Shown here piece after piece: positions 11,425-64,000 of a stretch of 64,000 nucleotides of DNA (position 1 is the stretch's first letter; every line of letters begins with the position of its first letter). The position numbers were made by a program, and so were the translations under genes. Origin of the DNA: Komagataeibacter xylinus (lineage in GTDB: Bacteria > Pseudomonadota > Alphaproteobacteria > Acetobacterales > Acetobacteraceae); contig NZ_JARWSK010000001.1 of assembly GCF_031081985.1 (NCBI RefSeq), positions 248,001 through 312,000 of the forward strand, written 5' to 3'. The notes under the pieces were generated by a model. It was not told the origin of the DNA, searched no databases, and saw nothing but the letters and a program-made list of their open reading frames with translations.

Positions 11425-11499
11425 GGGCGCATAGCTCAGCGGTAGAGCACTATCTTGACATGGTAGGGGTCACAGGTTCAATCCCTGTTGCGCCCACCA
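11425..11499 (+). tRNA. tRNA-Val (anticodon GAC)
   Basis: 75 bases fold as a full cloverleaf: acceptor GGGCGCA/TGCGCCC, D-arm GCTC/GAGC, anticodon stem CTATC/GGTAG around TTGACAT (anticodon GAC), T-arm ACAGG-TTCAATC-CCTGT, and encoded ACCA end. It is the left border of the prophage: the integrase starts just beyond it and points towards it. Confidence 0.95.
11474..11499 (+). other. Probable attL within the tRNA-Val 3' end
   Basis: Tyrosine integrases of this type usually recombine in the T-arm/acceptor part of a tRNA gene, and the intact tRNA sits next to the integrase. The matching attR repeat is not in the window, so the exact core is not determined. Confidence 0.45.
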
Positions 11500-11521
11500 T
11501 CGGTTCCGGAGAAAACCTTAG

Positions 11522-22413: not shown

Positions 22414-22791
22414 TCAGGCCGCATTGGTGTCGATTCTGGCCTTGAGAAGCGCCATCAGACCGAAACGCTCTTCCTCGCTCATAGCGCGCCAGATCTTGAG
22501 GAGAAGAACCTCGAATCTATCATGAGCCACATCACCACCCGACTGATCCGGCGCAGGACTGAAGAGCATGTTAGGGGTCAGCCCCAGCGGCTTCAGGAAC
22601 TCAAATGGCAGCACGTTCAAGGTGTGAGCTATTTTTACCACTGCGAGAAGATCAGGCGCAGTGGTGCGGCGCCGAGCGTTTCGCATGGTGTCGATCCCCA
22701 CACCAGCCGCACGCATGACTGACGACTCCGACGGTGAACCGGCGGCTTTCAGGGCTGCGTCATAGACGCTGAAGAACTCCTCTACGCTCAT
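22414..22791 (-). CDS. Phage repressor (short, HTH, no peptidase domain)
   Basis: 125 residues. Residues ~20-70 form a Cro/CI-type helix-turn-helix (SSVMRAAGVGIDTMRNARRR, PDLLAVVKIAHTLNVLPFEF). The C-terminal ~40 residues are a small helical dimerisation region; there is no S24/LexA serine-lysine peptidase domain, so RecA-stimulated self-cleavage is not expected. It is divergent from the rightward early operon, with operator-like sites between them and matching sites at the leftward promoter. No Shine-Dalgarno precedes ATG 22791. Confidence 0.8.
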   Translation of the reverse strand: MSVEEFFSVYDAALKAAGSPSESSVMRAAGVGIDTMRNARRRTTAPDLLAVVKIAHTLNVLPFEFLKPLGLTPNMLFSPAPDQSGGDVAHDRFEVLLLKIWRAMSEEERFGLMALLKARIDTNAA

Positions 22792-50877: not shown

Positions 50878-51696
50878 TTATTTTAATAAATAAACAGGAA
50901 TTCCAGATTCTTTTAGTTGGTCATAGAAACCTTGATGAATTATTATATTGGAATAATCAACGCACAATGGAACGTATTCTCCTGATACGCTTTGTGTGCA
51001 TTTAAAAATAAATTTTTGACGATACCCAATTATATTTTCATCAGAAATTGAGTTATTTACTAGGGTTGGTATTGGTGAAAAATAAACCTCTCCATGAGTT
51101 TTTTTGTATTCTAATAAATACACCTCTTTTGAGGCGTCGTATAAGTCATTGCCATATGGTGTGGATGGTGAATATGAATGTATATCTTTATACATGGCAA
51201 ATAGTTTTTTATATATTTTAGACTTTTCTGGATCACCAACAAAATGAACACACGCTATTACCCTTTGTGCATATAAATCTTCAATTTCCTTACTATTGTT
51301 CTGGTCCTTATTACCTGATGATTTTATTATCTCGTAAGAGAGATTTGAACCATAAAGTAACGCATTATATATATACCAATCGTCTGAATATCTTATTGGT
51401 GCCTGAGCCTCTATTGAGAGTATCTGCTGGATTCTTTGTGCCATCTTAAGGGCGCTTCCAGGGGCTAGCGGGTCCATATTTCCCCACGCTATTTTTTCGA
51501 ATACAGTTCCTTTTATGTAATCATCATACCACATAAGAGCCTTTACTATTCGGTTTTGATCTACTGAACCATCAGCGGGCCCGATTGGCTCGCAAGTTGA
51601 TGTGGGCTTTAAATCAGATATTGAATCACCCGCATAAGCATGAGACGAATATGGAATAGATATTGATGCCGCCAATAACACATACCTAAATATCAT
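50878..51696 (-). CDS. Secreted protein of unknown function, AT-rich moron
   Basis: 272 residues with a clear signal peptide (MIFRYVLLAASISIPYSSHA YA) and a mature helical/beta part containing four Cys (STCEPIG, VIACVHF, FKCTQS, PLCVDY) that could form disulfides. Codon use is strikingly AT-rich. Its ATG overlaps the stop of the ribbon-helix-helix repressor gene, so it is cotranscribed with a gene that should be active in the lysogen: a lysogenic conversion candidate. No family recognised. Confidence 0.7.
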   Translation of the reverse strand: MIFRYVLLAASISIPYSSHAYAGDSISDLKPTSTCEPIGPADGSVDQNRIVKALMWYDDYIKGTVFEKIAWGNMDPLAPGSALKMAQRIQQILSIEAQAPIRYSDDWYIYNALLYGSNLSYEIIKSSGNKDQNNSKEIEDLYAQRVIACVHFVGDPEKSKIYKKLFAMYKDIHSYSPSTPYGNDLYDASKEVYLLEYKKTHGEVYFSPIPTLVNNSISDENIIGYRQKFIFKCTQSVSGEYVPLCVDYSNIIIHQGFYDQLKESGIPVYLLK

Positions 51697-51935
51697 TTCT
51701 CAGTTTTCCCCTGCGCATCCTTCGCCCTCTCAAGAGCCTCAAGCGCGATCTTCTTAATCTCTGCCAGTTCGCTATCCCGCGTGGCGATTTCCTTCTGATA
51801 GCCGTCGCGCATGAACTCGATCATCCAGACGAGTTCGGCATTCACAGATCTGCCGTTTCGGGCAGCCTGTTCATCAAGCCAGCGCTTTAACTCGGCTGGG
51901 AAACGGACATGGAACTGTGCAGCTTTCTCTCGCAT
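51693..51935 (-). CDS. Mnt/Arc-type ribbon-helix-helix repressor, immI module 1 (leftward)
   Basis: 80 residues from ATG 51935. QFHVRFPAELKRWLDEQAAR NGRSVNAELVWMIEFM is the Arc family beta-strand plus two helices; a C-terminal coiled coil follows (ELAEIKKIALEALERAKDAQ) as in Mnt for tetramer formation. Divergent from a second RHH gene with paired operators between. The downstream secreted protein is translationally coupled. Confidence 0.8.
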   Translation of the reverse strand: MREKAAQFHVRFPAELKRWLDEQAARNGRSVNAELVWMIEFMRDGYQKEIATRDSELAEIKKIALEALERAKDAQGKTEK

Positions 51936-51947
51936 GCAACCACAGTG

Positions 51948-51986
51948 TACCAAAAAGGTATTGACGACAATTCTACCTTATTGGTA
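51948..51986. promoter_or_regulatory. Paired operators of immI module 1
   Basis: Two palindromes TACC-N5-GGTA: TACCAAAAAGGTA (51948-51960) and TACCTTATTGGTA (51974-51986), centres 26 bp apart, between the divergent RHH genes. TTGACG at 51961-51966 may be the rightward -35. Spacing of about two and a half helical turns allows cooperative binding of RHH tetramers. Confidence 0.7.
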
Positions 51987-51995
51987 GGAAGTGGT

Positions 51996-52220
51996 ATGGG
52001 TAAACACATGAGAGAGGTCATGAAACAGAGAGACCCGCAAATTCACGTCCGCATCCCGCAGTCCATGAAGGACGCATTGGAAGCGAACGCAAAGGCAAAC
52101 TGCCGATCCGTCAATTCAGAGATTGTTTTTGGATTGAAGTTTTATGCTCAACATCTTGAGCAAGCAGAAAAGGCGTTGGGCATCGCCGTGCAAAGCCAGC
52201 CCAACGCCCCTCAGAAATGA
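51996..52220 (+). CDS. Arc-type ribbon-helix-helix repressor, immI module 1 (rightward)
   Basis: 74 residues from ATG 51996 (AGGAAG upstream). DPQIHVRIPQSMKDALEANA KANCRSVNSEIVFGL is the Arc signature. It is the first gene of the antirepressor operon, as arc precedes ant in P22; it would dampen antirepressor synthesis. Confidence 0.8.
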   Translation: MGKHMREVMKQRDPQIHVRIPQSMKDALEANAKANCRSVNSEIVFGLKFYAQHLEQAEKALGIAVQSQPNAPQK

Positions 52221-52239
52221 CCTTACAAGGAACATCACT

Positions 52240-53172
52240 ATGACCGCTCTTACCACAATCGACTTCCACGGTTCAAACCTTATTGCGATCCCCGGTGATC
52301 GTCCCGAAACAACGCTGGTGGCGATGAAGCCGGTGGTTGAGGGGATGGGGCTGTCATGGCAGCCACAGCACAGGAAAATTATGTCTCATTCGGTGCTTAA
52401 AAAGGGTATCACCATGACGGTGATACCTTCTGACGGCGGCGAACAGGACGGAACCTGCCTCTCCCTCGACCTCCTCAACTTCTGGCTCGCCACGATCCAC
52501 CCCGACCGGATCAAGAATGAAGCAACCCGCGCGAAGGTCATTGAATACCAGACCGAATGCGCCCGCGTTCTGTTCGATCATTTCTTCGGTAAGGCGCTAG
52601 CACGTGGCGCTCAATCCGCCCCTCATCACCTGACGGCGCAGGAAGTCGGTGGCATCGTGAAGGGTATCGTCAATAAGCGTGTGTCCGAGAGCGAAAAGCG
52701 CCTGGAAGAGATGTCCAGCATGTTGGCGGCCCTCAATGTGGAAATCCGCGAGAAGCTGACACCGACACAGCGGGAACTTTCCGACCATGCCGTTGCCGTG
52801 GTGCAGGAAAAGGTTGCCGAAAAGCAGGCTCTGGTCGAAACCCGCGTGCCCGGCCAGATCGCAGCCTTTCCCATCCCGGCTAACCTGATCCCCAAGCGCC
52901 GCCCGAACACCGGAACGTGCCGTCTGCCGGTTGGTGAGATCGGTCGTCGCCTTGGCATTGGTGCTGCGAAGGTCAACGCCATGCTGGCCGATCTTGGCTT
53001 GCAGTCGACTGGCACGACAAACCAGCCATGGATGGTCACGGACAATGGCGAGTTCTTCGGCATTCATCATACCAAGCGGCAGATCCTGTGGTCGGCCCGA
53101 ACCCTTGACGTGCTGCGCTGGCGCATGGAGGTGCGCCCTTTCGCCAAGGCCAAGGAGCGAGCCCCGGCGTAG
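52240..53172 (+). CDS. Phage antirepressor, P22_AR_N type (immI module 1)
   Basis: 310 residues. The N-terminal ~120 match the P22 antirepressor N-domain (FHGSNLIAIPGDRPETTLVA, MKPVVEGMGLSWQPQHRKI, LNFWLATIHPDRIKNEATRA, KVIEYQTECARVLFDHFFGK). A coiled-coil middle leads to a C-terminal wHTH-like domain (LPVGEIGRRLGIGAAKVNAM) ending RPFAKAKERAPA. AAGGA precedes ATG 52240. Binds and inactivates phage repressors. In-frame C CCT TTC at 53136-53142. Confidence 0.88.
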   Translation: MTALTTIDFHGSNLIAIPGDRPETTLVAMKPVVEGMGLSWQPQHRKIMSHSVLKKGITMTVIPSDGGEQDGTCLSLDLLNFWLATIHPDRIKNEATRAKVIEYQTECARVLFDHFFGKALARGAQSAPHHLTAQEVGGIVKGIVNKRVSESEKRLEEMSSMLAALNVEIREKLTPTQRELSDHAVAVVQEKVAEKQALVETRVPGQIAAFPIPANLIPKRRPNTGTCRLPVGEIGRRLGIGAAKVNAMLADLGLQSTGTTNQPWMVTDNGEFFGIHHTKRQILWSARTLDVLRWRMEVRPFAKAKERAPA

Positions 53173-59854: not shown

Positions 59855-59876
59855 CTGATCAACAAAGGAAAACACC

Positions 59877-60455
59877 ATGAACCAGAATATCTCCCGCCGG
59901 TCCCTGCTGCGTGCCGGGGCTGGAACGCTGGCGGCTGGCCTGCTGGCAGCCTGCACCGTGACCAAGAACGGCACGACCACCACGCTGACCCTCAACGTGG
60001 CCGAGGTCACAGACTACGGGAACGCGATCCTGTCATTCGCCAACACGGCCATCAATGTCTCGTTCGTGGCGAGCGCGATGGGGACCGCGAACCTGGCACT
60101 CGCAAACACGGTGATTGCGTCGCTGAAATCGGCCCTGTCCGCGTTCTCGACTGCCGCCGGGTCGAGCACGTCCGTCAGCTACGACAGCGCCAGCGTGAAA
60201 ACCGCGTTCGACAGCATCCTTGCCGATGTGGAGAAGGTGGACACGCTCATCATTTCCACGATCACAGGCACGGCAGCAAACCTGTCCAGCAGCGTGGTGT
60301 CCGAGGCCAAGACGGCGGCGGGTGCGGCTGAAACGCTGATCTCGCTGCTCAAGGCCATGATCGACATGACTGGCCCGCGCCTGCGTGGTGTGTCGCCCCT
60401 GAGCGGTGATGCGGCCATCGGGCAGATTGCCGTTTTCTCGGCCTCGCAGGGATGA
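59877..60455 (+). CDS. Phage-encoded Tat-type lipoprotein
   Basis: 192 residues. Twin-arginine start SRRSLLRAGAGTLAAG followed by a lipobox LLAAC, so export by Tat and lipidation at the Cys are predicted. Mature part is Ala/Ser/Thr-rich and helical (VEKVDTLIISTITGTAANLS). Tat export is unusual for a phage protein. Could be an envelope-modifying or outer-membrane lysis factor; unknown. Confidence 0.65.
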   Translation: MNQNISRRSLLRAGAGTLAAGLLAACTVTKNGTTTTLTLNVAEVTDYGNAILSFANTAINVSFVASAMGTANLALANTVIASLKSALSAFSTAAGSSTSVSYDSASVKTAFDSILADVEKVDTLIISTITGTAANLSSSVVSEAKTAAGAAETLISLLKAMIDMTGPRLRGVSPLSGDAAIGQIAVFSASQG

Positions 60456-60595
60456 CCACCCACACGCTCGCCGGTCTAGGCCTGTTCCTGACCGGCGCAG
60501 CGTTCTCGCAGGTGCTGGCTTTCGGCATCGCCGCGTGGCGGGAATACCGGCGCGAACGGCAGATTGACGACACGCTTGGGCCTCCTGCGCCCTAG
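60452..60595 (+). CDS. Small membrane protein, 47 residues
   Basis: ATGA overlap with the lipoprotein gene. One hydrophobic helix (LAGLGLFLTGAAFSQVLAFG) and a basic tail (IAAWREYRRERQIDD). Its stop overlaps the end of the leftward RHH gene by four bases. Confidence 0.6.
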   Translation: MTTHTLAGLGLFLTGAAFSQVLAFGIAAWREYRRERQIDDTLGPPAP

Positions 60596-60891
60596 TCTGG
60601 GTCTATATCATTTAGGTGGGTTATTTTGATCTGATGGCCCTTTGTGGGATGGTCAATAACCTTCAAACCCACGGTAATATTACCCTGCTTGTCGCGGAAT
60701 GGTTTTTGGGGTGCTGGCGCATCCATACCACTCAAGGTCAGATCCATTTTTGTTGAAGGATTAACGCTTTCTTCCAGACGATAAACGACCTCGGCGTTCA
60801 TGGAACGTCCGTTCGCTTTCGCTGATTTCTCAAGCGTTGCCTTTAGTTCGTCCGACATGCGGACATGAATCATGGGGTCGCGTCTAGCCAT
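60592..60891 (-). CDS. Mnt/Arc-type ribbon-helix-helix repressor, immI module 2 (leftward)
   Basis: 99 residues. RRDPMIHVRMSDELKATLEK SAKANGRSMNAEVVYRLEES is the Arc family domain; the C-terminal half (PFRDKQGNITVGLKVIDHPT) is a small beta region. Divergent from a second RHH gene. Same layout as module 1 but different protein and operator. Confidence 0.85.
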   Translation of the reverse strand: MARRDPMIHVRMSDELKATLEKSAKANGRSMNAEVVYRLEESVNPSTKMDLTLSGMDAPAPQKPFRDKQGNITVGLKVIDHPTKGHQIKITHLNDIDPD

Positions 60892-60903
60892 ACGAACTAT
60901 TTA

Positions 60904-60966
60904 TAACACAGTGATATTGACTTCAATGATAACACGGTGTTACCTATGATTTGTAACACGGTGTTA
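60904..60966. promoter_or_regulatory. Three operators of immI module 2
   Basis: Perfect palindrome TAACACGGTGTTA at 60930-60942 and again at 60954-60966, plus a variant TAACACAGTGATA at 60904-60916; centres 26 and 24 bp apart. They fill the divergent promoter region between the RHH genes. TTGACT at 60917-60922 may be part of the rightward promoter. Confidence 0.75.
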
Positions 60967-60975
60967 GGGGAGAAT

Positions 60976-61161
60976 ATGGCACGCCGCGATCCAATGATCC
61001 ACATTCGCTTGGCAACGGAAGTTAAAGATTTCCTTGCTTACCGAGCGAAGAATCAAGAGCGAACGATGGGCGCTCACATCACTTTCTTGCTCAAGCAGGA
61101 AATGGAAACAGAAAAGGCACCGGGCCGCCTGGCAGCTAGTCCCGATGCCTCTGAACAGTAA
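60976..61161 (+). CDS. Arc-type ribbon-helix-helix repressor, immI module 2 (rightward)
   Basis: 61 residues from ATG 60976 (GGGGAGA upstream). RRDPMIHIRLATEVKDFLAY RAKNQERTMGAHITFLL, same N-terminal start (MARRDPMIH) as its divergent neighbour, so the two probably arose by duplication. First gene of the antirepressor operon. Confidence 0.82.
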   Translation: MARRDPMIHIRLATEVKDFLAYRAKNQERTMGAHITFLLKQEMETEKAPGRLAASPDASEQ

Positions 61162-61180
61162 CCGCAAGGAAACCATTCCT

Positions 61181-61435
61181 ATGAGTGACATTATCACATC
61201 AGGCATCACGCCTGCAATGATTCCGGGCATTCGCAAGGCCATTGAGGTTTGTGAGGAATATGCAAGTGAAAATGCCTTCATCTGCATGGATGAAGTGGAC
61301 CGTCTTTGCCAATCAAACGCTTGGAAAGATCCCTCAAAGCACGAATTGGCGGCGATTCATCGTCATCAGTCCAATCTATGCACACGCATAGCTGATCACT
61401 TCCGCACATTGATTGGTGAAGGAGTAGAGGTATGA
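61181..61435 (+). CDS. Hypothetical protein upstream of antirepressor 2, 84 residues
   Basis: ATG 61181 after AAGGA. Helical (MIPGIRKAIEVCEEYASENA, MDEVDRLCQSNAWKDPSKHE). Stop overlaps the antirepressor start. Unknown; module 1 has no counterpart. Confidence 0.65.
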   Translation: MSDIITSGITPAMIPGIRKAIEVCEEYASENAFICMDEVDRLCQSNAWKDPSKHELAAIHRHQSNLCTRIADHFRTLIGEGVEV

Positions 61436-62274
61436 CCCAGAATATCATTCCCTTCGCGTTCAAGGGGCATGAAATCCGTACCGTTCTGGTTGATGGCAAA
61501 CCTGCCTTTGTTGGAAAGGATGTGGGCGAACGTCTCGGATATGCCGACCCTACCAACGCTATGAAGCTGCATTGCCGTGGGGTGGTAAAACGCCACCCCA
61601 TCGTTGATTCCCTTGGGCGCACCCAGAACGCACGCATCATCTTCGAGCCTGACGTACTGCGCCTTATCATCAAGAGCAAGTTGCCCGAGGCGGAAGAATT
61701 TGAGCGCTGGGTGTTTGATGAGGTTCTGCCTTCCATCCGCAAGACTGGAAGTTATGGTGCCATCAAAGCCCCGGAACAGAAGCCCAAGCGCATCCGCAAG
61801 CCTGCCTTCGATGTAGCCTTCGAGCGCTGCCTGCGTGTCGCATCGCACCTGTCCAATCTGGATGAAAACCAGCGCCTTCTGATGGCCGCTCGCGGCACGA
61901 AGGAACTGTCCGGTGTCAATCCTCTGGAATTAATGGGTGTCACGTCCGTTGCCGCGCCGACGCAGGATAATTACCTGACGCCCACGCAGATCGGCAAGGA
62001 AATCGGCCTGAGCCCGATTGCCACGAACAAGCTGATTACCACCATTGGATATCAGGTGAAGTCGGTCGGTTCCAGCGTTTCGAGCGACTATTCAATGACC
62101 GATGCAGGCGCGAAGCATGGCCGGATGTTCGACACGACGCGTCGCCACGGCAAGGGATCGCAGCAGCAGTTGAAGTGGTCGCCCAATCTGGTGGGTATTC
62201 TGCGCGCCGCCATGCTGGCGGATAAGGATGCGCCGCGCCCTTTCGCCAAGGCCAAGGAGTCGGCCCCGGTGTAG
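61432..62274 (+). CDS. Phage antirepressor, Bro-N type (immI module 2)
   Basis: 280 residues. N-terminal Bro-N domain (IIPFAFKGHEIRTVLVDGKP, FVGKDVGERLGYADPTNAMK, EFERWVFDEVLPSIRKTGSY), then a C-terminal DNA-binding-like domain (YLTPTQIGKEIGLSPIATNK LITTIGYQ) ending RPFAKAKESAPV. In-frame C CCT TTC at 62238-62244, identical in place to antirepressor 1. Presumed to bind and inactivate repressors. Confidence 0.88.
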   Translation: MTQNIIPFAFKGHEIRTVLVDGKPAFVGKDVGERLGYADPTNAMKLHCRGVVKRHPIVDSLGRTQNARIIFEPDVLRLIIKSKLPEAEEFERWVFDEVLPSIRKTGSYGAIKAPEQKPKRIRKPAFDVAFERCLRVASHLSNLDENQRLLMAARGTKELSGVNPLELMGVTSVAAPTQDNYLTPTQIGKEIGLSPIATNKLITTIGYQVKSVGSSVSSDYSMTDAGAKHGRMFDTTRRHGKGSQQQLKWSPNLVGILRAAMLADKDAPRPFAKAKESAPV

Positions 62275-62513
62275 CTTCGACGGCAAAGCCCCTCACCAAA
62301 TCGCACCTCGGCTTTCTCGCTGGCCGTTCATCAGATTATGCGATGGACTATCTGGCCGGGCATCGGCCTGCCGAAGTGGTCTGGCAGACCATGACCGAGT
62401 ATGTGCAAGCCGTGGCGCGTATGATCGCGGACAGGGAAGGGAAGTCACGACCGCCCGCTGCAATGCGGTTGATGGTGCCGGGGTGCGACATGAAACGGCT
62501 GGAAATAGCTTAA
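62238..62513 (+). CDS. -1 frame extension of antirepressor 2, or separate small gene from 62343
   Basis: The -1 frame is open from the slippery heptamer through RQGQGVGPGVASTAKPLTKS, HLGFLAGRSSDYAMDYLAGH, RPAEVVWQTMTEYVQAVARM to GCDMKRLEIA. No ATG/GTG/TTG occurs in the protein-like stretch before ATG 62343. Fusion would have ~360 residues; from ATG 62343 alone 56 residues. Confidence 0.5.
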   Translation, partial: PFRQGQGVGPGVASTAKPLTKSHLGFLAGRSSDYAMDYLAGHRPAEVVWQTMTEYVQAVARMIADREGKSRPPAAMRLMVPGCDMKRLEIA

Positions 62514-62518
62514 CCACA

Positions 62519-62546
62519 AGGCGGTTCTTCGGAGCCGCCTTTTTTA
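62519..62546 (+). terminator. Strong terminator ending immI module 2
   Basis: AGGCGGTTC - TTCG - GAGCCGCCT, nine pairs closed by a UUCG tetraloop, followed by a T-run. Confidence 0.9.
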
Positions 62547-62557
62547 TTGGAGAAATC

Positions 62558-62698
62558 ATGACAAAACGCTTTCTCGGGTGCCTGCTTCTGGCGGCCATTT
62601 TTCTTTCGGGATGCGCGACATACAAGGATTGTCGTTCTGAAAATATCCCCAAAGGGCAGTGCATTTTTGTAACTGTGTTTGAGAACATCCAGCCATGA
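62558..62698 (+). CDS. Small phage lipoprotein, 46 residues
   Basis: TKRFLGCLLLAAIFLSGCAT has a signal peptide and lipobox LSGC; short mature part with two more Cys (YKDCRSENIPKGQC). Size fits o-spanin (Rz1-like) or exclusion lipoproteins; not Pro-rich as Rz1 usually is. Confidence 0.65.
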   Translation: MTKRFLGCLLLAAIFLSGCATYKDCRSENIPKGQCIFVTVFENIQP

Positions 62699-63495
62699 CC
62701 AATCGCAAACTCGGCTGCCGCCCGGCTGAACACCGACCCGGCCAGCCGCATCTGTCCGCCATGCGGGGCTTCTGTACCCGGCGTGCTCCGGCGCGGCTGA
62801 TCCGCGACCATATCGACCCACACCCCGGCATGCTGGGCAATGATGCTCTGGGCGATTGCACAAGTGCTGGCATCGGCAATCACCTGCACGCCACGGCAGC
62901 GCTGGGCGGGTTTGACGTGGCCGTGACGCCTGACGACGCGGTACGGTTCTACAGCCGCTCCACCGGCTACGTGCCCGGAAACCCGAACACAGACAATGGC
63001 GGCGTTGAGGTCGATGTGCTGACCGCAGCTTCCCGAGACGGATACGCGCTCGAAACCCAGACCCTGTATCCGTGCTGGGGGAGCGCCGACCCGGGCGACC
63101 TGAACGGCATCCGCAATATCACTGCTGGCCTGTCTGCCGCCTATCTGGGCGTGCAGCTCGCGCAGTCGGATATGTGGGAAGATCAGGACGGCAATCTGCC
63201 GCCAGTGTGGGACACGGACAGTCCGGCCAATCACGGCGATCCGACACCGGGCAGCGCGGGAGGCCACTGCCTGCTGCTGTGGGATTACGCGGGCACCGCC
63301 GACACCGATCTGGTCACGCTCCTGACATGGGGCAGCAAACAGAAAGCGACATGGCGATGGGTTCGGTCCCGCATCATGGAGGCGCACGGGCTGGCATGGG
63401 GGCAGTTGCACGCGCCCGGCGCCCTGTATCCGGCTGGTGACGACTGGACGGCGCTGGTCGAGGCCAATGCTGCGTATCTGCGGGGCGTGTCGTGA
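62695..63495 (+). CDS. Papain-like (C39/C1-type fold) protein, 266 residues
   Basis: Contains GMLGNDALGDCTSAGIGNHL with a candidate nucleophilic Cys, GSAGGHCLLLWDYAG with a candidate catalytic His, and LTWGSKQKATWRWVRSRIME at the place of the Asn/Trp motif. This Cys-His-W order matches papain-like peptidases and peptidoglycan amidases. No signal peptide. A cargo or virion-associated enzyme is possible; activity is inferred from motifs only. Confidence 0.6.
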   Translation: MTNRKLGCRPAEHRPGQPHLSAMRGFCTRRAPARLIRDHIDPHPGMLGNDALGDCTSAGIGNHLHATAALGGFDVAVTPDDAVRFYSRSTGYVPGNPNTDNGGVEVDVLTAASRDGYALETQTLYPCWGSADPGDLNGIRNITAGLSAAYLGVQLAQSDMWEDQDGNLPPVWDTDSPANHGDPTPGSAGGHCLLLWDYAGTADTDLVTLLTWGSKQKATWRWVRSRIMEAHGLAWGQLHAPGALYPAGDDWTALVEANAAYLRGVS

Positions 63496-64000
63496 GGGCA
63501 GTTCTGGGGCTGCTGTGTGCTCTTGGCCTGTCTGCCTGCGCCCATCAGGTACCCGTGCAGACCACGATTCCGGCAGCTATGGCTTCCATTCAGTCCAGCC
63601 TAGCGCAGGCCGGGGTGGTGTCGGTCTCGCATGCCGGAGAATGGACGGCGGAGCAGGACGCCCGGTTCACGCGCGCCGTGCGTGCCGACCAGTGCAGGCA
63701 GCATACGCCCGACCCGGTGGTTGGCACGATTGCAGGCGATGTGACGCTGCAGCTCTCCGGCCAGTTCACGCAGGGAGGGCAGTTCAGCGTAGGTGCGGCC
63801 ACCACAGTGCCCACGTTCGGGGTGCAGGCCGATGCCAGCCGGACGCGAGGGCAGGCCATCAGCCTGCCGGTGGCCTATGCGCCGCTTTCGTCCATGCCAG
63901 ATGTGGAGATGGGGCGGCAGCTTGGCTACGAGGCGTCCATGTTCGCCCAGAACGATGATGCCCGGCATGCTGAGGCCAAGCGCCTTATCGCCGACCGCGA
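63492..64000 (+). CDS. Lipoprotein, 3' end beyond window
   Basis: GTG 63492 overlaps the previous stop. Signal peptide with lipobox (VLGLLCALGLSACAH), then a beta-rich mature part (VVGTIAGDVTLQLSGQFTQG) continuing past the window edge. Function unknown. Confidence 0.65.
   Translation, partial: MRAVLGLLCALGLSACAHQVPVQTTIPAAMASIQSSLAQAGVVSVSHAGEWTAEQDARFTRAVRADQCRQHTPDPVVGTIAGDVTLQLSGQFTQGGQFSVGAATTVPTFGVQADASRTRGQAISLPVAYAPLSSMPDVEMGRQLGYEASMFAQNDDARHAEAKRLIADR

Follow-up and report, generated by a model that had tools for sequence, protein, structure and literature searches.

The window analysed here, a 64,000-nucleotide stretch of Komagataeibacter xylinus DNA (contig NZ_JARWSK010000001.1, positions 248,001 to 312,000), carries a prophage of ~53.6 kb that contains two loci resembling the immI region of phage P22. 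In each, two divergent genes for ribbon-helix-helix (RHH) proteins, referred to as the Mnt-position and Arc-position genes, flank predicted operators, and an antirepressor gene lies downstream of the Arc-position gene. The gene anatomy and the 49-bp attachment (att) repeats that form the prophage ends bear out the initial annotation, which had proposed two non-identical immI-like cassettes in one prophage. What is new is that the divergent repressors of a cassette match, far more often than chance would give, at both variable DNA-contact positions, those of Arc residues 9 and 11.

Cassette 2 (60592-62546), the subject of that annotation, is an intact P22 immI-like cassette whose reading frames are open throughout. 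Its parts, in window coordinates, are as follows.

60592..60891, minus strand: Mnt-position RHH repressor, 99 aa, contact triplet M-H-R (Pfam Arc, 2.7e-9)
60904..60916, unstranded: predicted operator O1, TAACACAGTGATA (palindrome; triad scoring)
60917..60929, unstranded: O1-O2 spacer, 13 bp, TTGAC...CAA, which may be a shared -35 region
60930..60942, unstranded: predicted operator O2, TAACACGGTGTTA (palindrome; triad scoring)
60954..60966, unstranded: predicted operator O3, TAACACGGTGTTA (palindrome; triad scoring)
60976..61161, plus strand: Arc-position RHH repressor, 61 aa, contact triplet M-H-R (Pfam Arc 0.0044, below the cut-off; clear with a family hidden Markov model, HMM)
61181..61435, plus strand: 84-aa open reading frame (ORF) between RHH and antirepressor genes, no known family
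61432..62274, plus strand: Bro-N antirepressor, 280 aa, C-terminal tail with PF (Pfam Bro-N 3.8e-19; phrog_130, anti-repressor Ant, 1.4e-50)
62271..62513, plus strand: small ORF after the antirepressor (phrog_32902, 1.7e-27)
62518..62541, plus strand: intrinsic terminator, 10-bp stem (terminator scan)

A divergent RHH pair around three operator-like sites, with a Bro-N antirepressor and a terminator downstream, had been read from the sequence beforehand, and all of these elements were recovered. The operators are 13-bp palindromes, 26 and 24 bp apart between the divergent Arc-type genes, and as a triad they reach a score of 58, whereas 60 dinucleotide shuffles average 31.8 and peak at 37. The exact word TAACACNGTGNTA has three copies in the 3.53-Mb genome carrying the window, all of them cassette 2 operators. 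A host regulon built on operator copies was considered and rejected, the 20 one-mismatch matches (both directions, the cassette's own included) equalling the 21 of a reversed-pattern control. A Shine-Dalgarno (SD)-like GGGGAG precedes the Arc-position gene (60976-61161), and no SD-like motif lies upstream of the Mnt-position gene (60592-60891). The 84-aa ORF (61181-61435) has no Pfam match above the cut-off and no PHROG match, and its homologues occur in L006, L011, L063, L086 and L087/L157 (G, C and L numbers are our handles for genomes, contigs and loci). Homologues of the small ORF (62271-62513) adjoin antirepressors in L155 (two places), L156, L067 and L075. Terminator-like sites in the region number 5, against 2.8 +/- 1.6 in shuffles.

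Cassette 1 (51693-53172) follows the same plan but carries a P22_AR_N antirepressor; its frames are open and not visibly broken, and a check for a broken cassette found both to be intact.

51693..51935, minus strand: Mnt-position RHH, triplet Q-H-R (Pfam Arc, 1.3e-7)
51948..51986, unstranded: predicted operators TACCAAAAAGGTA (51948) and TACCTTATTGGTA (51974); a third site is not clear
52020..52220, plus strand: Arc-position RHH, triplet Q-H-R (Pfam Arc, 1e-8; scanned from 51972)
52240..53172, plus strand: P22_AR_N antirepressor, 310 aa (Pfam, 6.9e-31)

TACC-N5-GGTA has no copies in the window other than those at 51948 and 51974. Operators, RHH sequences and antirepressor families (Bro-N versus P22_AR_N) thus differ between the cassettes, as first claimed. 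The antirepressor of cassette 1 is the single P22_AR_N match in the whole genome, and two further Bro-N genes lie outside the cassettes, near which neither Pfam nor the family HMM found an Arc-type gene (L061, L062). The final ~40 bases of the two antirepressor genes (53133-53172, 62235-62274) are nearly identical, with ~4 mismatches by eye, which suggests, at the level of sequence, exchange between the cassettes. Directly to the left of cassette 1 is a 272-aa ORF (50878-51696, minus strand) that is AT-rich (34% GC at 51001-51500), has no Pfam match and is likely cargo.

Divergent RHH pairs for comparison came from antirepressor searches, from a genus scan with its regions, and from the phages phiKX1 and phiKX2. 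They number 90, of which 55 are distinct and 36 fall in an acetic-acid-bacterium group (35 after a frameshifted duplicate, L015, is dropped); this group is our own, drawn by locus number from the searches rather than from the hosts of its viral contigs. In L015 (9022-9424), the Mnt-position gene is split over two frames, reflecting either a broken cassette or a sequencing error. RHH domains were aligned, and the agreement of cassette partners in each column was compared with that of shuffled partners, using a main set of 34 clusters of acetic-acid-bacterium cassettes and 3000 permutations. Partners agree at column 11 in 29/34 clusters (8.3 expected) and at column 9 in 20/34 (5.8 expected), levels that no permutation reached (0/3000 in both cases). 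When the set is reduced to 16 clusters at 50% identity, these columns still rank first and second, with agreement in 12 clusters at column 11 (3.3 expected, 0/3000) and in 8 at column 9 (3.2 expected, 12/3000). A held-out set of 15 regions, three without a pair and one with two pairs sharing a gene, gave 13 pairs, which agree at column 11 in 10/13 (3.7 expected, 0/5000) and at column 9 in 7/13 (1.9 expected, 2/5000; 16 columns tested). Kinship of the partners as the cause of this coupling is largely rejected, because columns 9 and 11 stand out and the helices barely do (helix identity 0.329 within pairs versus 0.294 between).

Via the PDB sequences, the contact columns correspond to Q9/N11/R13 of Arc and H6/N8/R10 of Mnt, and residues 9 and 11 of Arc, with R13, presumably read its operator. 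The far-above-chance match at these columns argues that the two RHHs of a cassette probably share one operator array and compete for it, and suggests an operator word that is shared within a cassette and differs from cassette to cassette. P22 Mnt and Arc read different operators; the near-identical sites and identical contact residues (MHR/MHR) of cassette 2 would argue against such a division here. Among the references of PMC3325190, Knight and Sauer (1989) is the entry on specificity lying in N-terminal residues of both Arc and Mnt.

Operators were scored under a 13-bp model, with 60 shuffles each, in 32 of the 35 cassettes (L007, L011 and L087 were left out, their intergenic regions being too short or mis-started). 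Both window cassettes belong to contact class xHR, share a TA-n-C...G-n-TA frame and a 26-bp O1-O2 spacing, and differ chiefly at residue 9, which is Q in cassette 1 and M in cassette 2. Within this class, a handful of cases judged by eye associate Q-H-R pairs with TACC half-sites and M-H-R pairs with TA[A/T]C. In L004 and L079, one Q-type and one M-type repressor are combined over half-sites that by eye are mixed, which makes cross-binding between the window cassettes plausible. Thus, the proposal that the two circuits are insulated stands in part: it agrees with their differing operators and RHHs, and is opposed by their common class, frame and spacing and by the mixing of Q- and M-types elsewhere. 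TTGAC occurs, by eye, in the O1-O2 spacer of 8 of the 9 scored xHR cassettes, the exception being L088 with TTGCC. Under automatic start assignment, an SD-like motif precedes 6/35 Mnt-position genes and 26/35 Arc-position genes, a distribution that fits low maintenance and strong feedback synthesis; as a guess, the Mnt-position transcript could be leaderless.

On balance, we think it fairly likely that both loci are immI-type anti-immunity cassettes in which the repressors and their operator diversify in concert. In the lysogen, the leftward Mnt-position RHH would occupy the operators and keep the antirepressor off, while the rightward Arc-position RHH, made from the antirepressor transcript, would bind the same operators and cap expression after derepression. 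Upon entry into a cell without a matching RHH, or on failure of repression, both Ants would be made, and the Bro-N Ant of cassette 2 and the P22_AR_N Ant of cassette 1 could then inactivate lysogeny repressors, either the phage's own, those of resident prophages, or both. Operator, Mnt and Arc would have to change together, so that cassettes would behave as exchangeable specificity units. That contact triplets vary and cassettes turn over suggests that selection favours differing specificities, a diversity that might be expected if a resident's Mnt blocks the Ant of an incoming phage. Two cassettes could then represent two anti-immunity channels, each of which a resident would have to block separately, and the two operator sets here seem similar enough for some cross-talk. 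A bolder version, which we put forward tentatively and would not yet bet on, is that operator, maintenance repressor and autoregulatory repressor form a co-evolving specificity unit that serves as a second superinfection-immunity system, that two differing cassettes and antirepressor families are two channels which a resident must match, and that residues 9 and 11 together with the half-site constitute a readable code.

Several results weigh against the anti-immunity reading. Under the operator model, 12 of the 32 scored cassettes exceed all 60 of their own shuffles; the cassette 1 triad, at 36, does not beat its shuffle maximum of 38, because it has no clear third site, and the mixed cassette L070 has no operator triad. 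Both contact columns are identical in 17/34 clusters, and partner agreement extends to columns 19 (z 3.4, 3/3000), 10 (z 3.1, 10/3000) and 5 (z 3.0, 22/3000), with column 10 also in excess among the held-out pairs (6 versus 2.5 expected, 53/5000). A sigma-70 scan of the cassette 2 region returned 0 promoters, against 1.1 expected. The structure predicted for the Bro-N protein has a mean predicted local distance difference test (pLDDT) score of 63 (low confidence), and the protein matches no PDB entry significantly, whether by fold or by sequence; the candidate target repressor (22414-22791) has a PHROG match at 1e-4 only and no Pfam match. In addition, an S24 repressor is present in 2/6 records searched, phiKX1 and phiKX2, where it accompanies two antirepressor loci; the antirepressors therefore need not be the route of induction.

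Neither cassette has nearby a GTTC-N7-GTTC box, which we take to be the alphaproteobacterial LexA box (three in the window versus ~2 expected, a rough estimate). LexA control of the Gifsy type was rejected on this ground, and the same absence counts against the view that the cassettes induce their own prophage, each as a separate input at which a signal inactivates the Mnt-position RHH as a stand-in for a self-cleaving repressor. We regard this view as improbable, there being no indication that the RHH proteins sense any signal, and the S24 repressor being retained in phiKX1 and phiKX2. That retention also weakens the simpler idea that the antirepressor just replaces a non-cleavable repressor. 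In favour of own-prophage induction, no Peptidase_S24 domain was found in the window's prophage and no S24 repressor in the double-cassette records G035, G044 and G046 (possibly fragments); none was found in phiKM1 either. Moreover, according to the parts of these accounts covered, antirepressors induce those Gifsy prophages whose repressors cannot be cleaved (PMC3121763), and repressor-inactivation modules independent of DNA damage exist (PMC10432266).

A further alternative concerns the variable slot in which cassette 2 resides, which is bounded as follows.

59877..60595, plus strand: conserved left border (192-aa and 47-aa ORFs), 82% DNA identity to phiKX1/phiKX2 (homology over 59875-60595)
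62695..63495, plus strand: conserved right border, phrog_19005, function not known, in 18/19 genus genomes at E 1e-20

To the right, homology to phiKX1/phiKX2 covers 62701-63997 at 73% DNA identity. The phrog_19005 protein (62695-63495), present in several copies in most of the 18/19 genus genomes having one, is a marker for this phage group. A survey with a small antirepressor panel covered 31 distinct slot intervals and detected antirepressors in 8 of them; L195, with an RHH pair and an ORF6N antirepressor beside the right border, was left out since the contig stops short of its left border. Slots of other relatives contain units with a single RHH or are as short as 158-392 bp, that of IMGVR_UViG_2848231700_000002, a cassette 1 relative, is 662 bp long without an antirepressor, and that of phiKM1 (L232 18755-19934) holds HicA-like, HicB-like and RelA/SpoT-family genes. 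Conceivably, cassette 2 is likewise a moron of little regulatory use, passing cargo kept mainly by selfish exchange or late-transcription effects, just as the ant moron of P22 is believed to influence read-through into the tailspike gene (PMC2629481, part covered) and P22 Ant is dispensable for induction (PMC3121763, part covered), but this seems very doubtful with both cassettes intact and with contact-residue coupling persisting across divergent cassettes, which implies continuing selection on repression.

The RHH-pair plan on which the anti-immunity reading is built recurs in acetic-acid-bacterium prophages and is not exotic. In a family sample of 200 genomes, 60 have an RHH match and 15, from rows inspected by eye, have a divergent pair, with two pairs only in the window's genome. 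The downstream antirepressors scanned are of the P22_AR_N, Bro-N, KilA-N, Rha or ORF6N type, some with a KilAC domain. Whatever the N-terminal domain, PF lies within the last 24 residues of the antirepressor tail in 31/32 members of the acetic-acid-bacterium group, as compared with 0/17 others; this tail (window 62200-62274) is a shared motif or a recombination border.

The implied uniqueness of the double cassette did not hold. Two viral records (handles G044 and G046), IMGVR_UViG_2619619235_000002 and IMGVR_UViG_2576861739_000003, have two RHH-pair cassettes each, one with a Rha and one with a P22_AR_N antirepressor, and one antirepressor of the latter record runs up to the contig edge. In four more cases, a pair cassette is accompanied by a second antirepressor unit. 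Two of these, phiKX1 and phiKX2 (LC644975, LC644976), are Komagataeibacter phages that resemble the window's prophage in having two antirepressor loci, of which the first is an RHH-pair cassette and the second occupies the slot of cassette 2. They differ in possessing an S24 repressor, in the KilA-N antirepressor of the pair cassette, which lies elsewhere in the genome, and in what fills the slot. There, an antirepressor combines a KilAC domain with an N-terminus resembling Rha, for which the match passes the Pfam cut-off in phiKX1 but not in phiKX2; the slot also holds a single RHH-like gene, which Pfam matches weakly in phiKX1 and not at all in phiKX2. The Arc-position RHH of phiKX1 (L156 19453-19665) is annotated as a phosphopantothenoylcysteine decarboxylase-type enzyme, and that of phiKX2 (L155 19621-19812) is unannotated. 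The other two, IMGVR_UViG_2751185764_000002 and G018, each have an RHH-pair cassette, its antirepressor of the P22_AR_N type, together with a slot that holds a Rha-type antirepressor and one CopG-type RHH (Pfam above the cut-off in the former, below it in G018); in G018 the units lie ~10 kb apart on one contig, which points to one prophage.

G011 (L064 6140-7342, contig C171) has two tandem divergent RHH pairs with a single Rha/KilAC antirepressor alongside, the second pair having no adjoining one. In 4/4 contigs or records with two RHH pairs (window, G044, G046, G011), the contact triplets differ, as a raw count. No description of these doubles as a double switch was found in the parts covered of the open-access literature searched, supplementary tables lying outside the search; the main text of Omata et al. 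2021 (PMC8566455), which describes phiKX1 and phiKX2, does not contain the word antirepressor as far as covered, Table S4 not being included.

Comparison with P22 immI (mnt, arc, ant; the 'ant moron') reveals both likenesses and departures. The divergent Mnt- and Arc-type genes around operators, the antirepressor downstream of arc and the location among late genes are all described for P22 in the portion of PMC2629481 covered; here, the neighbours are baseplate and tail-fibre families at 54.7-57.8 kb and the conserved slot borders. The RHH family profile matches Arc and Mnt, among other PDB entries, and the same search as for the other cassettes recovered the P22-like cassettes L121, L128 and L129. 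Unlike the P22 arrangement, the RHHs here flank repeated copies of one palindrome and match at the variable contact positions, whereas the P22-like L129 pair agrees at 11 and differs at 9 (H, Q). Cassette 2 further departs in its Bro-N antirepressor (cassette 1 does have P22_AR_N) and its additional 84-aa ORF, and the prophage in carrying two cassettes. The Gifsy/Fels-1 antirepressors (GftA, FsoA and others) act on their own and on foreign repressors, which resembles the role proposed for Ant, but they are small and controlled by LexA or a prophage repressor, and RHH pairs are not part of the account in the text covered (PMC3121763). Similarly, the transcription factor-small ORF modules of polylysogenic phages offer a route to lysis besides DNA damage, but are built from a small protein plus a transcription factor acting as activator, rather than from RHH proteins with Bro-N or P22_AR_N, as far as PMC10432266 was covered.

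The setting of both cassettes is that of an integrated phage gene array bounded at the left by one att repeat.

11454..11502, unstranded: attL, 49-bp repeat including the tRNA-Val 3' end (repeat match; second copy at C9:313019-313067, window-equivalent 65019-65067)

A tyrosine-type integrase (Pfam Phage_integrase) adjoins the tRNA-Val gene, and terminase, portal, head, tail-sheath, tape-measure, baseplate and tail-fibre genes occupy 32.9-57.8 kb. The window's closest relatives among named records belong to Komagataeibacter and other acetic acid bacteria, with both phages and genomes represented, and no plasmid relatives were found at the sensitivity of the search used.

Doubled antirepressor loci thus recur in phages of acetic acid bacteria. 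The cassettes form a varied natural set in which the repressors are apparently locked to one operator, so that a role in heteroimmunity is directly testable, and this set supplies candidate specificity pairs for RHH proteins.

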